From Spirochaetaceae bacterium (lineage in GTDB: Bacteria > Spirochaetota > Spirochaetia > Treponematales > Treponemataceae), in assembly GCA_017614995.1 (NCBI GenBank), contig JAGAAX010000023.1:1-64000 (forward strand): a stretch of 64,000 bases of DNA. The letters run 5' to 3'. Numbering within the stretch: position 1 is the first letter of the stretch; each line of letters starts with the position of its first letter. Shown piece by piece: positions 1,363 through 9,458 of the stretch. The notes beneath the pieces are model-generated. The model was not told the DNA's origin, did not search any database, and worked only from the letters and a program-made list of their open reading frames with translations. Position numbers and translations under genes: made by a program.

Positions 1363-2559
1363 ATGAGTACATTTATTGATTTGACGGTACGCAAAAGTCT
1401 TGCCGACACCCTTGCTAAAAAAGAAATTACAAACGCAACAGCCGTTCAGGCTCAAGTTATACCCGCTATATTTGAAGAAAAAAATCTGATTTTCAGCTCA
1501 GAAACCGGCACAGGAAAAACCTACGCATTTCTGCTTCCGCTTATGACGCGCCTCTTGAACGAAAGAGAAAAGCAGATTGCAGAAAAGATTCAGCCGACAC
1601 CGCAGCCGCGCATAATTATAGTTGCACCAACCCACGAGCTTGCATCGCAGATAAAGCAGGAAGCCGATTTTCTTGCAAAAGCAGAAGACGGCGCAGACGA
1701 AAGGCTTAAGCTTAAAACAATGCTCTGCATAGGCGGAGCTTCAATTACAAGACAGATTGACGCCTTAAAGACAAAACCGCAGATTATAGCAGGCGGTCCT
1801 GCAAGACTGCTTGAGCTTATTCACTTAAAAAAGCTTAAGACGCAGCAGGTTTTTGCGGTTGTCTTAGACGAGGTGGACAGACTGCTCTCGACAGAACTCC
1901 GCGACATAACAACTGAACTTATAAAAGCAATAGATTCTCAATATCAGCTTATTGCCTGCTCTGCCACAATAAAGCAGAACCACATCAAGATTTTAGAGGA
2001 CGCTTCGGGCAAAACTCTTGAAAACATAGCGATGCCCAAAGAAAATGTGCTTGAGCGCAATATCACGCATTATGCGCTTCATGCTGAAAGACGCAACAAA
2101 ATCGACACATTACGGAGCCTTATTGCAGCAGAAAAGCCGAAGCGCGTCTTAGTCTTTTCCGCCGAAACAGGTCAGATTGCAAACATTGTAGAAAAACTCA
2201 AATATAAAAAGATTGACTGCATGGGACTGCACGCCAAAACCGACAAGATTGAGCGCAAAAAAGCCATTGATGACTTCCGTTCGGGCAAGTGCAGAATCTT
2301 GGTAACCAGCGACCTTGCCGCGCGCGGTCTTGACATCGGAGACATAACCCACATCATTCAGATGGACGTGCCCTCAAACGAGGACTTTTTTGTGCACCGC
2401 GCAGGACGCACCGCCAGAGCCGGCAAAACCGGCATAAACATCGTTATCGGCGATGAATATGAGCTGCGTCAGCTTGCAAAGCTTGAAAAAAAGCTCGGCA
2501 TTGTGATTTATCCGAAAGTGCTTTACGGCGGCAAGCTTATAGCACCGCCACAAGACTAG
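1363..2559 (+). CDS. DEAD-box family ATP-dependent RNA helicase
   Basis: A two-RecA-domain helicase of about 398 residues. In order: Q-motif glutamine (AVQAQVIPA), motif I SSETGTGKT, motif Ia PTHELA, motif II as DEVD rather than DEAD, motif III SAT, then LVTSDLAARGLDI and motif VI HRAGRTARAG. It should unwind short RNA duplexes using ATP, in ribosome assembly or mRNA turnover. There is no basic C-terminal extension, so it is a minimal core. I prefer ATG 1363 over GTG 1354, which adds three residues; neither has a clear ribosome-binding site. Its stop overlaps that of the convergent gene by 4 bases. Confidence 0.9.
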   Translation: MSTFIDLTVRKSLADTLAKKEITNATAVQAQVIPAIFEEKNLIFSSETGTGKTYAFLLPLMTRLLNEREKQIAEKIQPTPQPRIIIVAPTHELASQIKQEADFLAKAEDGADERLKLKTMLCIGGASITRQIDALKTKPQIIAGGPARLLELIHLKKLKTQQVFAVVLDEVDRLLSTELRDITTELIKAIDSQYQLIACSATIKQNHIKILEDASGKTLENIAMPKENVLERNITHYALHAERRNKIDTLRSLIAAEKPKRVLVFSAETGQIANIVEKLKYKKIDCMGLHAKTDKIERKKAIDDFRSGKCRILVTSDLAARGLDIGDITHIIQMDVPSNEDFFVHRAGRTARAGKTGINIVIGDEYELRQLAKLEKKLGIVIYPKVLYGGKLIAPPQD

Positions 2560-4043
2560 AAGTTTATTGTGCCGTAGGTCAGCGAAACTTTCCATGCGAA
2601 GGCAGGGCTGCCGTCATAACCGCTCTGTCTTGTAAATTCGCTGCCCCTCATGCCGAAAGTTACGACAGGACCGGTGCTCAACTTAAAGTCTTTCTTAAAA
2701 GCGTAAGACACTGTGCCCTGCACCATGCCCGACCAGTCAGTAAGGCTTACAAGCGAATAAATACTGCCGGAACAGTCTCTTACAAACATATCTTCTTTTG
2801 AAAGCGAAATTGCGGCAAAATGCCTTCCTGCATAAGTGTAAGAATTCTGAAGCTTCAGAAAATCAATCTCTGACAGAGGTCTTGTCTTTTTTGCGCCGAA
2901 GCCGTTGAAAAAATACTGCCCCATCAAAGTCACTTTCGGCTCTTTCCATGTATAAGAAAAACCTGTTGTAGCCTGCACCACAGGCTTCATGTCGCCGTAT
3001 TTTGGCGAGCCGGTTCCGTTTTTAGAGAGCGGCTGCCACTGCTCTTCTGTGCCGTAGCCGAACACAAGCTCTGAAAAAGTTGCTATTTTGCCGATGCCGC
3101 CGGTAAGCGTTGCAACGGCTCGTGGAGTTCTTCCGTATTTGTACCAGCCGCCAAGCCCTACTTCAAAATTCTTAATCAAAAACTCGTATTTTGCGGCAAA
3201 AGCTGTATATTTAAAGTCTTTTTTCAGGTCAAATCCGTCATCGTTTTTGCTGTTTTCCTTAGCCTCGCCTGTCTTTATGTCAGGCAGCACATAAAACCAG
3301 AGACAGTTCTGCGTACCCGGAAACACAACCTGCGTGCGTAGCGAAATTGCACCCTCACGCTGTTCTGTCGGGTTTTCTGGGTCTACAGCCGAAAGATTGA
3401 TTACATCAGCAGGGCTGAAAAAGTACCCGACGCCCCAGGTTACCGTATGTTTTCCCAAACGGAAGAATACCCTGTCTTTGAGGCTGTAATCCATGAAATA
3501 CTCAAACCAAGTTATCGTGTCTTTCCACGCCGGAAAAACGTTGTCCTTTTCGTCAGAAAAAGGATAAAGCACAGGCTGCGGAATCTTGAATTTAGCCTTT
3601 GCATAAAAGCGGAGATTATCCTTTGGGCGCACGTCAAAATAAAAGTCAGACAGCAGTTTTGGCGTAACAGCAAAATCTCTAAAGCCGTTCTTTGTAAATT
3701 CGGGGTTTCTGTTTCCGTCTTTTAGCGGATCATACCAGAGAAACATGCCGTCAAGAGTGAACGAAAGCGAGCAGCCGAAGCGGAAAATCTTTTCAGCATA
3801 AATATTGCTTATATCAAAAGTAAGCGGCGTCTCGCTTTCTATTGCCTCGCCCTCTTCTATCATAGAATCTGAAAACATGTCATCACCACCGAACATGTCA
3901 TCATCTGAGAACAGGGCGTCATCGCCTGAAAAGCCGTCATCGTCCATAAAGAAAGCATCATCGCTGTCCGCCGCAAACAATGCAACGGCAGCGGTAAAAA
4001 GCAGCAAAAATGAGAATAATCTTTTATTCCTAAATAAATTCAT
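2556..4043 (-). CDS. outer-membrane beta-barrel protein of the Lol-like ABC operon
   Basis: A 495-residue protein with a clear signal peptide (KRLFSFLLLFTAAVALFAA). It is followed by a strongly acidic linker in which F and M alternate with DD pairs, roughly residues 25-65. The rest alternates polar and aromatic residues with many W/Y/F-ended strands and ends in GTINF, as expected for a barrel that ends with an aromatic residue. I do not recognise a named family. It is the last gene of an operon of ATPase, two permeases and a LolA-like carrier, with 3 nt between it and the carrier. It may be the outer-membrane acceptor or exit port for whatever that system moves. Confidence 0.65.
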   Translation of the reverse strand: MNLFRNKRLFSFLLLFTAAVALFAADSDDAFFMDDDGFSGDDALFSDDDMFGGDDMFSDSMIEEGEAIESETPLTFDISNIYAEKIFRFGCSLSFTLDGMFLWYDPLKDGNRNPEFTKNGFRDFAVTPKLLSDFYFDVRPKDNLRFYAKAKFKIPQPVLYPFSDEKDNVFPAWKDTITWFEYFMDYSLKDRVFFRLGKHTVTWGVGYFFSPADVINLSAVDPENPTEQREGAISLRTQVVFPGTQNCLWFYVLPDIKTGEAKENSKNDDGFDLKKDFKYTAFAAKYEFLIKNFEVGLGGWYKYGRTPRAVATLTGGIGKIATFSELVFGYGTEEQWQPLSKNGTGSPKYGDMKPVVQATTGFSYTWKEPKVTLMGQYFFNGFGAKKTRPLSEIDFLKLQNSYTYAGRHFAAISLSKEDMFVRDCSGSIYSLVSLTDWSGMVQGTVSYAFKKDFKLSTGPVVTFGMRGSEFTRQSGYDGSPAFAWKVSLTYGTINF

Positions 4044-4046
4044 TTA

Positions 4047-4808
4047 TTAATTCAATTGTTCCAAATAAGCTTTTGTAAAAACTTTGTCAGGAATAGGCGC
4101 AAAAGTCAAATCGCTTATAATCTGCTGCGTCTGTTCACCTTTATTAAGTTCATCTCTGATAAGCACCTGTGTCGAAACATAACCGGCAGGCACTTTTGTG
4201 TATTTAGGCAGCAGAATTGTACGCATAAGTCTGCCAGAACCCGAAAAGTCTTCCTGCTTTAAGAGCAGCGGAATATCTTTGCGGATATAATACTTTGACT
4301 TTACATAAGACGGAGTATTTGTAGTAGCTTCAAGTGTAATTATCGAAATTTCGTATTTGCCCAAAGTTCCGTCTGTAAATTCAGTAACCTTGTAGTTTTC
4401 ACGCCAGTGGTCGTCTGCGCGGTTTACGTCGTCAATCTTAACGTCTGAATCGCCGAGCGCTTCTTTTATTGAAGTATGCGTAAATTTGCGGCTAATCGGG
4501 TCATAAGCCCAGATGTTGTCGCCCTCGCGGAGATAGCCTTTGCCTTTATCAGATTCTGGGAAAAGCTGCACGATTGTCATCAAATCTTTGTCTGTGCGCT
4601 CCAAAATCTTATACTGAAGATTCTCTTTCGGCTTGCCTGGTTTTTCAATAACAAGAGAAATTGTAGCCGAATAATCGCCATGATAAGCAAGAATATCATC
4701 GCTTGCTTCCATTATAGAAAAAGCCTTATCAGAATCTTCTTTTGAAACTTGCGCAAAAAGCCCTAAAACCAAAAACAAACCTAAACAAAAACAAACAAAT
4801 CTTTTCAT
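4047..4808 (-). CDS. LolA-like outer-membrane lipoprotein-sorting protein
   Basis: A 253-residue protein with a signal peptide (KRFVCFCLGLFLVLGLFAQ) and a LolA/LolB-type open beta-barrel pattern: YSATISLVIEKPGKPKENLQYKI, then GYLREGDNIWAYDPISRKF, then a late strand series around KYYIRKDIPLLLKQEDF. This is the LolA-like family often annotated as outer membrane lipoprotein-sorting protein. It would carry acylated or hydrophobic cargo across the periplasm. A good Shine-Dalgarno (AGGAGG) precedes the ATG. It sits directly after the two permeases, so the ABC transporter is its likely loader. Confidence 0.8.
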   Translation of the reverse strand: MKRFVCFCLGLFLVLGLFAQVSKEDSDKAFSIMEASDDILAYHGDYSATISLVIEKPGKPKENLQYKILERTDKDLMTIVQLFPESDKGKGYLREGDNIWAYDPISRKFTHTSIKEALGDSDVKIDDVNRADDHWRENYKVTEFTDGTLGKYEISIITLEATTNTPSYVKSKYYIRKDIPLLLKQEDFSGSGRLMRTILLPKYTKVPAGYVSTQVLIRDELNKGEQTQQIISDLTFAPIPDKVFTKAYLEQLN

Positions 4809-4833
4809 TGCAGCCTCCTGTATTAGACTAAAA

Positions 4834-6210
4834 TTACTTTATAGCCCTCAACGCTTCCGCAGGGTTCAGTCTTGCCGCCTTTTTAGCACTTCCACTTACA
4901 GCGACAATCGTAAATAAAACAAGGAGAACGTATTGGGTTACAACAGTTCCTGCTGATAATGTGAACGAAAAATGTCCGTTATTCAAAAAGAACGACAGGC
5001 TGTCTATAGAAACCGGAATCAAATGAATAACCGACATTACAATAAGCGAAAGAACAAAGCCTGAAACCGCGCCGATAAGGCACAGAATAACAGCTTCTGC
5101 CGTAAATACGCTTCTTGTGCGTTTTCTGTCCATGCCAAGAGAACGCATTGTGCCTATTTCGCGGATTCTCTCGTAAAGCACCATTCTGTAAGTATTTGAA
5201 ACGCCTACCATTACGATAAACAGAATAACAAGCAGAATAACCGTTGTTACGGTATGCACTATAGAAAGCACAGTCTTAATCGCAGGCACTTCGTCGTACA
5301 ATGTTTCTACCGCATATTTTGTGCCTTCCCAAGTCTGCTTTTTTGGGTCAATCTGCTTTTCAATACCCTTGCCGACATTTGTCGGATTTGTCTTCATTGC
5401 TTCAAGGCGGCTTGTTACCTGCACACCGTCTGCGCGGATAAGAGCCTCAATTTTGTTGGCGACTTTTGCCTGATCTTTTTTGTTGCGGAGATTAACCGTA
5501 AACGTAGAAAAACCCGCCTCAGGAATTCCGCTCAACTTATTCAGATTGGCTATGTCAGTATAAACCTGCATTGAGCTTAAAAAGCTGTTCGATTTGATGA
5601 TTGCCGCAACAGTAAAGTCGTCAACGGTGTTCTGCCCGTAAATTGTGTTGCACGTAAATGTCAGAGTATCGCCGACAGCAAGATTCATGGAATCAGCAGT
5701 TTTTTCGCTTATAATAAGCGCGTTAGGCATAGAAAAGTTTTCAGGTCCTCCGGCTGTAAAATAAAGCGAATTGACAAAAGACTTTTCGGTAAAATCTCTT
5801 CCGTACATTGTAGAGAGTGCCTTTTTGCCTTCAAAAATAAGCTGACCGCCGCGGAACGAATAGCATGAAATAGACTCATAGTCTTTTATGTTTTTCTCAA
5901 CAAGATTCTTTATATAGCCTGTATCGCGCACAACAGCTTCCGCAGTAGGTTTCTTGCTCTCGCTGTCAGACTGAACAATTTCAAGACCCTGAATAAGCAC
6001 AGTTCCGCCGAGAAGCTGTGTAATCTGATTTTCAAGGTTGCTTACCATGCCGGTAACAAGGCCGTCTACAGTTGTAACAACCAAAAAACCGAATGCAATC
6101 GCAATCGCAAGAATTGCGTTTCTGCGTTTTTGGCGTGTAAGGTTCTTTAAAGCCAGGCTGACAGTCAGTTTCAATGTGCTGTCAGCGACATTTGTATGTT
6201 TTCTGCTCAT
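4834..6210 (-). CDS. FtsX/MacB/LolC-type ABC transporter permease
   Basis: A 458-residue permease with the layout of this family: one N-terminal membrane segment (NAILAIAIAFGFLVVTTV), a large periplasmic domain of about 250 residues, then three C-terminal membrane segments. The segment before the cytoplasmic loop carries the typical IREIGTMRSLGMDRKRTRSVF motif, and the end reads LNPAEALRAIK. It probably pairs with the next permease (5' neighbour, 7-nt gap) and the LolD-like ATPase, extracting lipoproteins or lipids from the inner membrane rather than importing a solute. Confidence 0.85.
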   Translation of the reverse strand: MSRKHTNVADSTLKLTVSLALKNLTRQKRRNAILAIAIAFGFLVVTTVDGLVTGMVSNLENQITQLLGGTVLIQGLEIVQSDSESKKPTAEAVVRDTGYIKNLVEKNIKDYESISCYSFRGGQLIFEGKKALSTMYGRDFTEKSFVNSLYFTAGGPENFSMPNALIISEKTADSMNLAVGDTLTFTCNTIYGQNTVDDFTVAAIIKSNSFLSSMQVYTDIANLNKLSGIPEAGFSTFTVNLRNKKDQAKVANKIEALIRADGVQVTSRLEAMKTNPTNVGKGIEKQIDPKKQTWEGTKYAVETLYDEVPAIKTVLSIVHTVTTVILLVILFIVMVGVSNTYRMVLYERIREIGTMRSLGMDRKRTRSVFTAEAVILCLIGAVSGFVLSLIVMSVIHLIPVSIDSLSFFLNNGHFSFTLSAGTVVTQYVLLVLFTIVAVSGSAKKAARLNPAEALRAIK

Positions 6211-6217
6211 ATTCTAT

Positions 6218-7747
6218 CTATTCCCTGCTTAATGCTTTAAGAGGTGTAATTCTCAAAGCAGAACTTACCGGATAGAGATTGCTCAAAATACTTCCGGCAA
6301 ATGCAATAACTAAAGTCAGCACAATTATTTTCACAGTCGGACTGAAATGCAAAAGCCCGCCGCCGAGAATCATCTTTGCAATGCTGTTTGTTATCGTTAT
6401 GTTGCATGAATTGAACACAGCCATTACGATGAAGGCGACAATAATTCCGATAATCGATGAAATAATTGTGAGAAAGCCGCTCTCTGTAAAGAAAAGCATA
6501 CGCACAAAGCTTTTTTTAGCTCCTATCGCGCGCATTGTGCCGATTTCGCTTGTACGCTCAATAATGCTTACAGTCATTGTGTTCATTACAATTATAAAGA
6601 CAACCACCGCAAGAATTATAATCAGCAGATTGAATATAATGCCTATGCCTTCAACAGACTGCGAGTAAGAATAAGCCGCGCGCTTCCAGTTCATTGCCTC
6701 AACATTCAAGCCCTCTTCTTTAAAGATGCCGTTCAGCTCCGCAATGATTTTTTCTGTCTGCGAAGCGTGCTTAACCTTTGTAAGGATAAAATGCCACGCG
6801 CCGTCGTCTGTCTTGTTAAGCTCGTCTCTAAGAGAGGTGTCGCCCAAAAGAGAGCTGAAATCAATTTCAGTATCTGCAAGGAACGTACCGCTTTCTACAT
6901 CATCAAAGCTTTCATCATCGCCAAAAAGCTCGTCCTCGCTCAAGCTTGAAAGAGACAAGTCAATGTCGTCAGGCAGTTCCTGGGTGAAAGAAGAGCCGTA
7001 TGTAAGGTCGGCGAATGTTCTTGCAAAAGACGGATGGCTGTAGACAGCCTGAAACATTGCAGAATATTCGTTAGACGGCTTAAAAAAGCCCGAAACAACA
7101 GCCTCGCGGACAATGCCGTTTGTGTTTGCACCGAGGACAAGTACCTTGTCACCGACATTAAGCGGCAGATCATAAAGCGACTCAAAAGCTTTTTTTAGGC
7201 GTGTGTCTACGATAATTTCGTTTGAATCTTTTGCAGGATAATCTCCCTCAACAAAATGAAGCCCCTGAAAAGTGTCCTGATAAGTCTTGTCCTCGCCTGC
7301 AAAAAGTATGGCAATAGGCATATCGTCAAAGCCTATGTCGTCTTTTTCAGTCCATGCGGACAAATCAACTTCGTCGCCGCTCTTTGCAAGCATAACCGAT
7401 GCAGAGATAAGCTTTGTCTTTTTTTCAAAATAATCAAAGCCGTTCAAGATTTCTTCAACCTTTTCAAGCTCTGCAATTGCAGGAAGCTGCGGAATTTCAC
7501 CAGAAAAATTAGTTGTATTTACACCGAAAAGGTCGTTTATCTCGCCTTTAGCCGAAATTGTTCCTATTACGATGTCGCCTGTATAATTTGCGCGGAAATC
7601 CTTTTCAAGTCCACGGTTTACAGACTCAAGAAAAGAGTTTCCAAGAATTACGATTGCAACTCCAAAAATAAAGAAACACGCAATAATGATTGTCTTTACC
7701 TTGTGCTCTTTAAGATTACGGACTGCCAGTCTAAAAATCTGTTTCAT
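6218..7747 (-). CDS. FtsX/MacB/LolE-type ABC transporter permease
   Basis: A 509-residue permease of the same four-segment family as its downstream neighbour, with TSEIGTMRAIGAKKSFVRML before the second cytoplasmic loop and a RITPLKALSRE end. The periplasmic domain contains an acidic insert at roughly residues 240-300, with repeated LS-S-DELFGDDESFDD-type blocks, similar in style to the acidic linker of the outer-membrane protein in the same operon. Its ATG overlaps the stop of the ATPase gene (TAATG), implying translational coupling. Probably a heterodimer partner of the other permease. Confidence 0.85.
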   Translation of the reverse strand: MKQIFRLAVRNLKEHKVKTIIIACFFIFGVAIVILGNSFLESVNRGLEKDFRANYTGDIVIGTISAKGEINDLFGVNTTNFSGEIPQLPAIAELEKVEEILNGFDYFEKKTKLISASVMLAKSGDEVDLSAWTEKDDIGFDDMPIAILFAGEDKTYQDTFQGLHFVEGDYPAKDSNEIIVDTRLKKAFESLYDLPLNVGDKVLVLGANTNGIVREAVVSGFFKPSNEYSAMFQAVYSHPSFARTFADLTYGSSFTQELPDDIDLSLSSLSEDELFGDDESFDDVESGTFLADTEIDFSSLLGDTSLRDELNKTDDGAWHFILTKVKHASQTEKIIAELNGIFKEEGLNVEAMNWKRAAYSYSQSVEGIGIIFNLLIIILAVVVFIIVMNTMTVSIIERTSEIGTMRAIGAKKSFVRMLFFTESGFLTIISSIIGIIVAFIVMAVFNSCNITITNSIAKMILGGGLLHFSPTVKIIVLTLVIAFAGSILSNLYPVSSALRITPLKALSRE

Positions 7748-8595
7748 TAAAGGCTCTCCGTTTTGTAAACACTAGATCCAGATTTATATTCGTTGTTGCT
7801 TATTTTTCCGTCAAAAATATGAACGACATGGTCGCACATTTCCACGATTCTTGAGTCGTGTGTCGAAAAAATAAACGTAGTCTGCAAGTCTTTGTCGTTG
7901 TTTAGGTCTTTCATAAGCGAAAGAATCTGTGCGCTGTTTGTCGAGTCAAGGTTTGCGGTAGGCTCGTCTGCAAGAATTACCGGCGCTTTTGTAACAAGCG
8001 CACGCGCAATTGCGACGCGCTGACGCTGACCGCCTGAAAGCTCCGACGGCTTGTGTGTCTTCCAGTCGCAAAGCCCTACTTTTTCCATTAAAAACTGAAT
8101 CCATTCCTCTTTTTCTTTTTTTGAGAACGAATCAATCGGACAGTCGAGCTTGCTGTTCTTTGACTTTAAAAGCAGCGGAAACTCAATGTTTTCGTAGACG
8201 TTCAAAACCGGAATAAGGTTGAATGTCTGAAAGATAAAGCCGATGTGCGAGCGGCGCAAGCCCGTAATTCTTTTGTCGATTGACGACGGAATTGTGGTCT
8301 TTATCTTTTTGTTGCGCTTTTCGTTATAATTGTTGAGGCGGTTTGACTCAAGCTGTGTAGAGCTTAGGTCAAAGCCTTCGTAAATATCTATGCCGTCTAT
8401 AATTATCTTTCCGCTTGTAGGCAGGTCAATCAAGCCGACCATATTAAGCAGCGTAGATTTGCCCGAACCGGAAGGTCCTGAAATTGCCGCGAATTCGCCT
8501 TTCTGAATCTCAAAAGACACATCCTTAATAGCCTCAACTTTCTGCTTGCCGAGCGGATAAGTCTTGTATATGTTTTTAAGTTCTATTATTGCCAT
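7747..8595 (-). CDS. LolD/MacB-type ABC transporter ATP-binding protein
   Basis: A 282-residue ATPase with Walker A GPSGSGKST, signature LSGGQRQRVAIARAL, Walker B VILADEPTANLDS and H-loop FSTHDSR. Members of this family are usually about 225-235 residues. The extra length is mainly an insert of about 40 residues (basic, NEKRNKKIKTTIP) between Walker A and the Q-loop (GFIFQTFNLIP). It is the first gene of the operon, powers the two downstream permeases from the cytoplasm, and has a good Shine-Dalgarno (AGGGGA) and a recognisable promoter upstream. Confidence 0.92.
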   Translation of the reverse strand: MAIIELKNIYKTYPLGKQKVEAIKDVSFEIQKGEFAAISGPSGSGKSTLLNMVGLIDLPTSGKIIIDGIDIYEGFDLSSTQLESNRLNNYNEKRNKKIKTTIPSSIDKRITGLRRSHIGFIFQTFNLIPVLNVYENIEFPLLLKSKNSKLDCPIDSFSKKEKEEWIQFLMEKVGLCDWKTHKPSELSGGQRQRVAIARALVTKAPVILADEPTANLDSTNSAQILSLMKDLNNDKDLQTTFIFSTHDSRIVEMCDHVVHIFDGKISNNEYKSGSSVYKTESL

Positions 8596-8627: not shown

Positions 8628-8656
8628 ACTATATTGATTATAATATTATTAGTCAA
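8628..8656 (-). promoter_or_regulatory. promoter of the Lol-like ABC operon
   Basis: Read on the minus strand: TTGACT (8656-8651), a 17-nt spacer, then TATAGT (8633-8628), about 32 nt upstream of the start codon at 8595. The Shine-Dalgarno AGGGGA follows. A TATAAT lies within the spacer but is too close to the -35 box. Confidence 0.6.
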
Positions 8657-8720: not shown

Positions 8721-9458
8721 TTAATTCAGCGCAGACGGAAGCAGCATTGAGCCGGGGATTGTTTCCGGCAGAGACTGCTTTAAATCTGTCGGGCTTTCCG
8801 GCTTTTCAGTTTTTGTGCCGTCTTTAAGGCTGTTAAGCCAGTCAGACTGTGCAGAAGTGTCGCGCTTTTGAATTTCAATGTCGATGTACTTAAAGCCCAT
8901 TGCCGAGAAAATGCGCGTCAAAAGCTGCTTGTTATATTCGTCAGCTTCGTTAAGGAAGCCCGACCTTATAAGCTCAAGCTCCTGCTTTTTGCGCGCAACG
9001 TCAATTTCAGAAAAAACTTCCTGTGTGGTAATAAGCGAGAACACGTTATTGCTCTCGTCAAAAATCTGCTGGTTCGTAATGTCATTTGACAGAACAACGC
9101 TCGGCGGAATAGAAAGCTTGATTGCCGTTCTATCTTCTGAAATGTCAAAAGTTGCGGCGGTTATGTCCTCGATTCCGGCGCGGATTGTACCCGAATATTT
9201 GATAAGCGAATAGCTTTTTGACATGCCGAGCGCGCCGGTCTTTTTTACGGTGATTATGTCTGTGTACACAGATTTTATGCTAACCATCTCGGCGCACTGC
9301 TTGATTTCCTGCGCGGCAAGCACCGTAAGAGATTCATATTTTTGTTTTGAAAGCTTGTCCTTTAAAAGATAAAAACCGTAGGTCAAAGCACAGGCAAGCG
9401 CAAGAATTAAAATCAGCGAAATAAATGTCCATATAATCTTTCTTTTAATTGAACCCAT
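8721..9458 (-). CDS. DUF4230-type membrane-anchored protein
   Basis: A 245-residue protein with one N-terminal membrane segment (IIWTFISLILILALACALTYG). An extracytoplasmic domain follows with the features I associate with DUF4230: LAAQEIKQCAEMVSIKSVYT, then KYSGTIRAGIED and IKLSIPPSVVLSNDI, and a late ELIRSGFLNEADEYNKQLLTRIFSAMGFK stretch. The function of the family is unknown. It has its own Shine-Dalgarno (GGAG). It is upstream of the ABC operon on the same strand, but the promoter at 8628-8656 separates them. Confidence 0.65.
   Translation of the reverse strand: MGSIKRKIIWTFISLILILALACALTYGFYLLKDKLSKQKYESLTVLAAQEIKQCAEMVSIKSVYTDIITVKKTGALGMSKSYSLIKYSGTIRAGIEDITAATFDISEDRTAIKLSIPPSVVLSNDITNQQIFDESNNVFSLITTQEVFSEIDVARKKQELELIRSGFLNEADEYNKQLLTRIFSAMGFKYIDIEIQKRDTSAQSDWLNSLKDGTKTEKPESPTDLKQSLPETIPGSMLLPSALN

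Follow-up and report, generated by a model that had tools for sequence, protein, structure and literature searches.

A five-gene Lol-like operon of Spirochaetota whose permease loop and outer-membrane barrel tail share an acidic-aliphatic-Phe motif

We analyzed a 64,000-nt stretch of DNA from a Spirochaetaceae bacterium (assembly GCA_017614995.1, contig JAGAAX010000023.1, positions 1 to 64,000 of the forward strand), hereafter called the window. At 2556–8595 on the minus strand it contains an operon of five genes, which encode an ATP-binding cassette (ABC) ATPase, two permeases (permease 1 and permease 2), a LolA-like periplasmic carrier, and an outer-membrane β-barrel. A periplasmic loop of permease 1 and the N-terminal tail of the barrel have in common a short motif, roughly [DE][DE]x(L/M/I)F(G/S). 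We propose that the operon is a dedicated inner-to-outer-membrane export line in which the carrier would be recruited at the pump and at the barrel by this same acidic-aliphatic-Phe motif, a proposal whose case we regard as evenly poised. An earlier note, made from the DNA letters alone, had suggested that two acidic tracts of the operon may meet one partner; this is plausible, as the same motif occurs in both and is kept together across the phylum. Our searches of the open-licence literature listed no account of such an operon or of the motif common to its two proteins.

RESULTS

A Common Motif in Permease 1 and the Barrel

The model of permease 1 (mean predicted local distance difference test (pLDDT) score 77.4) matches LolE best (Z 25.0, root mean square deviation (r.m.s.d.) 6.2, 385 aligned), followed by LolC (Z 24.0, r.m.s.d. 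5.2, 368 aligned), and MacB is also among its structural matches (Z 19.9). Its periplasmic loop (residues 250–314) has pLDDT values below 50 except at about residues 270–275, where the motif is located and where residues 271–274 form a short helix in the model, and at a few residues near 304–305. In the AlphaFold model of the barrel, a signal-type N-terminus is followed by a disordered acidic stretch (residues 22–83). These two features account for what the earlier note had described as an acidic insert in the periplasmic domain of one permease (SEDELFG in the permease 1 loop) and an acidic linker right behind the signal peptide of the barrel. The motif consists of at least two acids followed by Leu, Met, Ile, Val, or Phe and then by Phe; the two proteins also resemble each other at positions that the definition does not fix, as Gly or Ser follows in 31/51 tails and 36/51 loops, often with more acid thereafter.

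For counting, we defined a strict motif (Phe after Leu, Met, Ile, Val, or Phe, with two or more acids among the four residues that precede this one) and a relaxed one, in which one acid suffices and Phe or Tyr is accepted. The strict motif is present in the tails of 22/22 loci from the family (shuffled mean 6.2) and of 28/31 loci outside it (3.8), 50/53 in total, and in the permease 1 loops of 22/22 family loci (6.5) and 19/29 outside loci (2.7), 41/51 in total. The relaxed motif is found in all 51 loops (22/22 in the family, shuffled mean 12.0, and 29/29 outside, 9.5), in the tails of 22/22 family and 29/31 outside loci, and in both proteins at 44 of the 45 loci that have both genes. None of 500 shuffles, which ignore relatedness, attained any of the observed tail or loop counts. 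The three tails without a strict motif comprise a start-site error (L079), a tail with DIY (L083), and a paralogous cassette (L127).

In alignments whose rows we selected, the column of the Phe is without variation in either protein (Phe-275 in 29 permease 1 rows and Phe-51 in 22 barrel rows), with variable surroundings. The density of strict sites differs between tail and barrel body, with 58 sites in 1320 tail residues versus 12 in 8980 body residues in the family, and 29 in 1860 versus 27 in 11782 outside it. Within a genome, tail and loop tend to have the same aliphatic residue before the Phe, more often than in permutations (mean overlap 0.557, 23 genera; median p 0.008, from 0 to 0.104 across 100 random choices of representatives), an agreement that leaves deeper shared ancestry in play. 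Barrel tails vary in length, and some contain tandem DDDLFGGS repeats. Two of them (L059, 520–2178, and L060, 492–2117, both minus strand) have eight and six DDDLFG units, showing that motif copy number is fast-changing.

As a control, residues 19–78 of 129 neighboring open reading frames (ORFs) match the motif in six cases. Among window ORFs of at least 120 residues, 6/49 match in the same residues, including the barrel and permease 1 of the operon; the permease 1 match arises from a second place, EINDLFG. A strict match anywhere in the protein is found in 3/23 permease 2 sequences of the family, in 6/23 family and 4/36 outside carriers, and in 1/21 family and 5/27 outside ATPases. We also considered the motif as a genome-wide tag and discarded this idea, as a degenerate DNA pattern occurs at 14 places in the genome versus 19 for the reversed control, that is, without enrichment.

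The Loop in Paralogous and Housekeeping Permeases

We compared permease 1 with two sets of related permeases. Twenty loci around weaker carrier matches (L140–L159) represent paralogous cassettes of the same phylum, made up of genes of these kinds, often with a barrel, in an order that differs from locus to locus. Their 37 permeases have a median length of 421 residues versus 507 for permease 1 (two have 551 and 583), and in 17 of them the strict motif turns up at some place in the periplasmic portion. In the loop columns, where their median length is 0 versus 62 in the window protein, none of the 37 has the motif. Barrel tails of these cassettes carry the motif in 2 of 13 cases. Where either the loop or the acidic tail is missing, the other tends to be missing too.

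The second set comprises 24 Lol permeases, 20 from 20 other spirochaete genomes, the two of the window genome, and LolC and LolE from Escherichia coli. The loop region measures 7–12 residues in these proteins versus 56–78 in nine aligned permease 1 rows, and the strict motif is absent from this region in all 24 (22 spirochaete housekeeping permeases plus LolC and LolE). A KETLFG stretch in one housekeeping permease (HK1) had been put at the motif position by a smaller alignment; a larger one moves it to the start of the region, and we take it not to be the motif. Because the loop is without counterpart in the paralogous and housekeeping permeases, we regard it as a property of this operon.

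Separately from the operon, the window genome encodes a permease-ATPase-permease trio (contig C29) and two LolA proteins of family PF03548 (contigs C49 and C32). With the LolCE model the operon permeases score 57.9 and 49.1 bits versus 214.8 and 194.7 bits for the C29 pair. The operon permeases lie below the LolCE cut-off of 362.45 bits, which is passed in none of 148 genomes of the phylum and so is strict for spirochaetes. LolCE-type permeases (E ≤ 1e-30) are present in 146 of these 148 genomes, versus at most 67 of 149 for the carrier of the operon. Since the housekeeping Lol set is separate and its permeases are near-universal, we consider the operon an accessory second line, and the idea in the earlier note of a general lipoprotein route to the spirochaete outer membrane is not supported.

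The Operon Is Widespread in Spirochaetota

A single-sequence search located barrel homologues in 42 of 100 genomes of the family. In a draw of 149 genomes from the phylum (E ≤ 1e-5), the barrel profile matches in 40 and the carrier profile in 67, the latter count including paralogues. Forty-four of the 149 genomes have a strong carrier match (E 3.6e-34 or better), and in 38 of these the barrel is directly downstream (36 at the first pass, G035 and G226 after a second-round profile), so that the barrel is the neighbor of the transporter in most relatives; its absence there was what the earlier note had named as a refutation. Among the other six, G166 has a gap of 1.4 kb; in G213 and G202 the carrier is close to the end of a contig and the barrel match falls on a different one; and for G141, G234, and G102 the profiles show no barrel. 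The order ATPase-permease 1-permease 2-carrier-barrel is complete in 34 of the 41 loci that were read first (the window and 40 others, many of them selected for having a barrel); in one of the 34, permease 1 is split over two ORFs. Across 61 loci overall, the carrier is found in 59 and the barrel directly after it in 50 of these.

Some loci depart from this arrangement. In genus g20 (L071:484–1944, minus strand; L075:7355–8815, plus strand; L113–L115), operon and barrel are found apart, with three loci at which the operon lacks the barrel and two others at which the barrel stands alone; tail and loop nevertheless both keep the motif. G020, a 1.1-Mb one-contig genome of this genus, matches neither the barrel nor the carrier profile. 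Locus L086 (862–4437) contains a carrier and a barrel with the motif, 1.4 kb apart, with no ATPase or permease within the 12 kb fetched. Genome G055 has two copies of the five-gene operon (L060 and L061), whose tails and loops are clearly different, with the motif in both copies.

Gene Identities and Layout

All five genes that the earlier note had assigned to the operon are present and tightly packed, with 1-base overlaps or gaps of 3–25 bases between neighbors (Table 1). The top NCBIfam match of the ATPase is LolD (199.2 bits, under its cut-off of 307.75). The carrier scores 113.5 bits with the LolA_like family PF17131, above the 30-bit Pfam gathering score, and its profile matches the solved LolA-superfamily protein NE2245 (3buu, E 6.2e-23); with the LolA equivalog TIGR00547 it scores 12.9 bits (E 0.056), below the 112-bit cut-off. 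Its N-terminus resembles a signal peptide. Asp-45, Gly-91, Tyr-92, and Phe-109 are near-invariant in 57 spirochaete carriers and are mostly different in five relatives from other cassettes (four from other phyla plus BBJ28 of Borrelia).

Table 1. Positions of the operon genes and of associated features in the window
Feature	Position	Strand	Basis
ABC ATPase, first operon gene	7747..8595	-	ABC_tran E 5.7e-34
Permease 1, FtsX type, LolE/LolC fold, with extra periplasmic loop	6218..7747	-	FtsX E 3.4e-15
Disordered periplasmic loop of permease 1, residues 250-314	6806..7000	-	pLDDT, alignments
Docking-type motif SEDELFG, permease 1 residues 270-276	6920..6940	-	F275 invariant in 29 rows
Permease 2 (FtsX, MacB_PCD)	4834..6210	-	FtsX E 6.9e-17, MacB_PCD E 9.8e-12
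LolA-like periplasmic carrier, PF17131	4047..4808	-	PF17131 E 1.2e-32
Outer-membrane β-barrel, 18 predicted strands, C-terminal Phe	2556..4043	-	AlphaFold model, structure matches, homologues
Disordered acidic barrel tail, residues 22-83	3795..3980	-	pLDDT below 50; motif copies DDAFF, DDALF, DDDMF, DDMF
Promoter-like TTGACT-17-TATAGT upstream of ATPase	8628..8656	-	Consensus scan only
Second promoter-like candidate upstream of ATPase	8666-8637	-	Consensus scan only

No Pfam or NCBIfam family, DUF1302 and OprD/AlgE-type families included, matches the barrel at E ≤ 1, and its profile gave a chance match only against solved structures. The AlphaFold model (mean pLDDT 69.2) has 18 strands and a C-terminal Phe. 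Its top Foldseek matches are porins (MOMP, OmpC/OmpF-type, and OpdK), and after structural re-alignment OccK/OprD porins rank first (OccK3: Z 18.6, r.m.s.d. 4.4, 304 aligned), with Z values of up to 16.6 for AlgE. OccK and AlgE barrels have 18 strands. As modeled, the barrel shares the 18-strand fold of OccD/OccK (OprD) and AlgE barrels, not their sequence families.

The two promoter-like candidates come from a consensus scan that returned 17 sites in the region versus 9.9 expected, and the evidence for both is weak. A DEAD-box helicase gene converges on the 3′ end of the barrel gene. A DUF4230 gene (window 8721–9458, minus strand) is located directly upstream of the operon, at a distance of 125 bases; no homologue of it was detected in 40 other operon loci.

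Neighboring Genes and the Cargo

Related PF17131 cassettes of other phyla provide clues to a possible cargo. Genes for a P450, a phosphopantetheinyl transferase, and a lipase lie next to the Paraburkholderia cassette, and genes for a ketoacyl synthase and an acyl carrier protein malonyltransferase next to the one from Enterobacter. No biosynthesis-type genes were seen beside the Aliiroseovarius and Persicobacter cassettes, so two of four related cassettes have such a context. This Enterobacter cassette, an exporter similar in type to the operon and surrounded by fatty-acid/polyketide-like genes, lies on an Enterobacter bugandensis plasmid (L136, 1–9060) that is typed as mobilizable. According to PMC10434189 and PMC10470040, Bacteroidota proteins with the annotation 'outer membrane lipoprotein-sorting protein' are under strong iron or hemin regulation, together with MMPL exporters. 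In Thalassolituus, long alkanes raise an MMPL protein with a LolA-like domain, and a predicted porin is discussed alongside (PMC6304351). By analogy, these sources, none of which is a spirochaete, point to a lipid-like or hydrophobic cargo.

The genes that flank the spirochaete operons are uninformative on the cargo: in the 81 of 129 flanking ORFs that were scanned, and among the 25 commonest of 100 families, the most frequent are peptidyl-tRNA hydrolase (5) and DUF4340 (5). Export of lipoproteins by the operon is doubtful, yet they are a possible cargo.

DISCUSSION

In the export line that we propose, the ATPase and the two FtsX-type permeases would lift a lipid-like molecule from the inner membrane, the LolA-like carrier would ferry it across the periplasm, and the 18-strand barrel would take it over, either passing it outward or placing it in the outer membrane. 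At the pump, the permease 1 loop would replace the Hook of LolC and do the same recruiting job by means of a linear motif; at the outer membrane, the disordered barrel tail would replace LolB, presenting the same motif there. As described in PMC10865981, the E. coli Hook is the essential recruiter of LolA, and LolA binds in vitro to the domain of LolC only, not to that of LolE. Hook sequences are poorly conserved; in a sequence alignment, the LolC Hook (residues 167–179) aligns to a hairpin of permease 1 at about residues 207–215. This hairpin has 11–15 residues in permease 1 rows, 21 in LolC, 20 in LolE, and 15–22 in spirochaete housekeeping permeases. Our suggestion that the loop stands in for the Hook thus follows from the role of the Hook in recruiting LolA and from a hairpin that is shorter in permease 1, with a motif loop added. 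Three points are inferences on our part: the carrier as the partner of the motif, the loop as the substitute for the Hook, and a lipid-like cargo instead of a lipoprotein.

Several of our observations weigh against this scheme. LolE, too, has a long hairpin and yet does not recruit LolA; the length of this hairpin is therefore only suggestive and cannot alone define a Hook. Outside the family, 10 of 29 loops satisfy the relaxed motif only, and 13 of 33 permease 2 sequences have a strict match somewhere in the protein. The conserved basic residues of the carrier (Lys-56, Arg-71, Lys-88, Lys-184, and Lys-246) are also basic in three to four of the five outside relatives and are therefore not peculiar to motif-bearing cassettes; we dropped them as candidates for a motif-specific pocket, and only Asp-45, Gly-91, Tyr-92, and Phe-109 largely set the spirochaete carriers apart from these relatives. 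The contrast between permease 1 and its paralogues could stem from one ancient evolutionary event. The evidence for a lipid cargo comes from other phyla only and from two of four cassettes, and a ketoacyl synthase is found in just 2 of the 81 scanned flanking ORFs of spirochaete operons.

A rival reading is a second Lol pathway, in which the operon would bring a special set of lipoproteins to the outer membrane, with the same docking and with the barrel either taking the place of LolB or flipping these lipoproteins to the surface. The closeness of the permease 1 model to LolE and LolC and the place of the carrier in the LolA superfamily speak for it, and lipoproteins have been proposed as a possible cargo of the analogous Borrelia cluster BBJ23-29 (PMC13078400). 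We consider this pathway somewhat unlikely, given that housekeeping-type Lol permeases, an ATPase, and two PF03548 LolA genes are encoded elsewhere in the genome, that LolCE-type permeases occur in 146 of 148 genomes of the phylum while the carrier of the operon is missing from some treponemes (G003, G020, and G045), and that two of the four related cassettes from other phyla adjoin biosynthesis-type genes. Another view is that the motif binds a partner other than the carrier, for example a periplasmic scaffold, a chaperone, or the assembly machinery, which would hold pump and barrel together or escort them. The carrier has no demonstrated motif-specific conserved pocket, and two tetratricopeptide repeat (TPR) proteins adjoin the Borrelia cluster, both of which favor such a partner. 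No further gene travels with the operon, however, as far as the scanned flanking ORFs go, where the top family occurs five times, and the loop sits on a Lol-type permease whose operon places a LolA-like carrier gene alongside; a partner other than the carrier thus appears unlikely to us.

Two other explanations were rejected. The MacB_PCD match of permease 2 and the structural match of permease 1 to MacB would be expected of a tripartite efflux pump of the MacAB-TolC type, in which the barrel would serve as exit duct and its acidic tail as spacer; with neither a MacA-type adaptor nor a TolC-type duct among the five operon genes, a LolA-like carrier in the unit, and an OprD-like barrel model, such a pump is improbable. 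It is hardly credible that the acidic tracts are unselected low-complexity sequence with an accidental likeness, despite the variable length and the tandem repeats of the tails: the Phe is invariant in the aligned rows of both proteins, the shuffles fall short of every observed count, few control ORFs match, and the loop columns of the paralogous permeases are devoid of the motif.

A broader form of our preferred scheme, which we put forward tentatively as a possibility, would have the operon serve as a phylum-wide supply line to the outer membrane of Spirochaetota, apart from Lol, with the motif replacing both Hook and LolB and one pocket of the carrier reading both ends. Many spirochaetes lack lipopolysaccharide. 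The supply of the spirochaete outer membrane is poorly understood, and this operon offers a clear candidate, open to testing, for a dedicated route. Should one motif indeed serve at pump and barrel alike, cargo load alone could determine in which direction a periplasmic shuttle runs. The operon would also be a caution that the annotation 'outer membrane lipoprotein-sorting protein' need not mean a lipoprotein carrier.

Comparison with Known Systems

The operon resembles the LolCDE-LolA-LolB system of E. coli in having an ABC ATPase, two FtsX-type permeases, and a carrier of the LolA superfamily. Unlike that system, it scores far under the LolCE and LolD cut-offs, its barrel stands in place of the lipoprotein LolB, its permease 1 combines a shorter hairpin at the Hook with an extra motif loop, and a separate housekeeping set exists beside it. 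None of the five operon genes encodes a LolB-type lipoprotein receptor, the rest of the genome not having been searched for LolB.

The Borrelia cluster BBJ23-29, as described in PMC13078400, likewise has an ATPase, a permease of the MacB/LolE type, the LolA-like BBJ28, and a gene downstream, and it has also been proposed to transport a non-polar ligand from the inner to the outer membrane. It differs in having one permease gene, an Omp85-type barrel (BBJ25), and two TPR proteins; BBJ27 is without a motif loop, and the carrier and barrel profiles of the operon gave no match there. Comparison of the barrel with BBJ25 by hhalign returned a probability of 0.2 (single-sequence partner), and values for BBJ25, BBJ29, and four other-phylum proteins range from 0.2 to 32, too low to settle homology. 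BBJ29 (L098:8008–9009), listed with unknown function in that paper, directly follows BBJ28, and its KLGRQNYYLGNG stretch resembles RLGKHTVTWGVG of the barrel.

The PF17131 cassettes of other phyla (on Paraburkholderia, Aliiroseovarius, Enterobacter, and Persicobacter plasmids) also contain an ATPase, one or more FtsX-type permeases, and a LolA-like carrier. An uncharacterized protein, probably a barrel, is encoded directly downstream in the three proteobacterial ones, and Persicobacter has a barrel-like ORF upstream of the ATPase. By eye, no acid-aliphatic-Phe motif is present in the tail or permease of the Paraburkholderia, Aliiroseovarius, and Persicobacter cassettes.

DUF1329 has a LolA-like fold. 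The paper on the AmeABCD system of Castellaniella mentions DUF1302 and DUF1329. As described there, AmeABCD uses a resistance-nodulation-division pump instead of an ABC transporter, and the barrel of our operon has no DUF1302 match at E ≤ 1; both systems nevertheless combine an inner-membrane exporter with periplasmic proteins and an outer-membrane protein, and the cargo of AmeABCD is hydrophobic (apolar monoterpenes).

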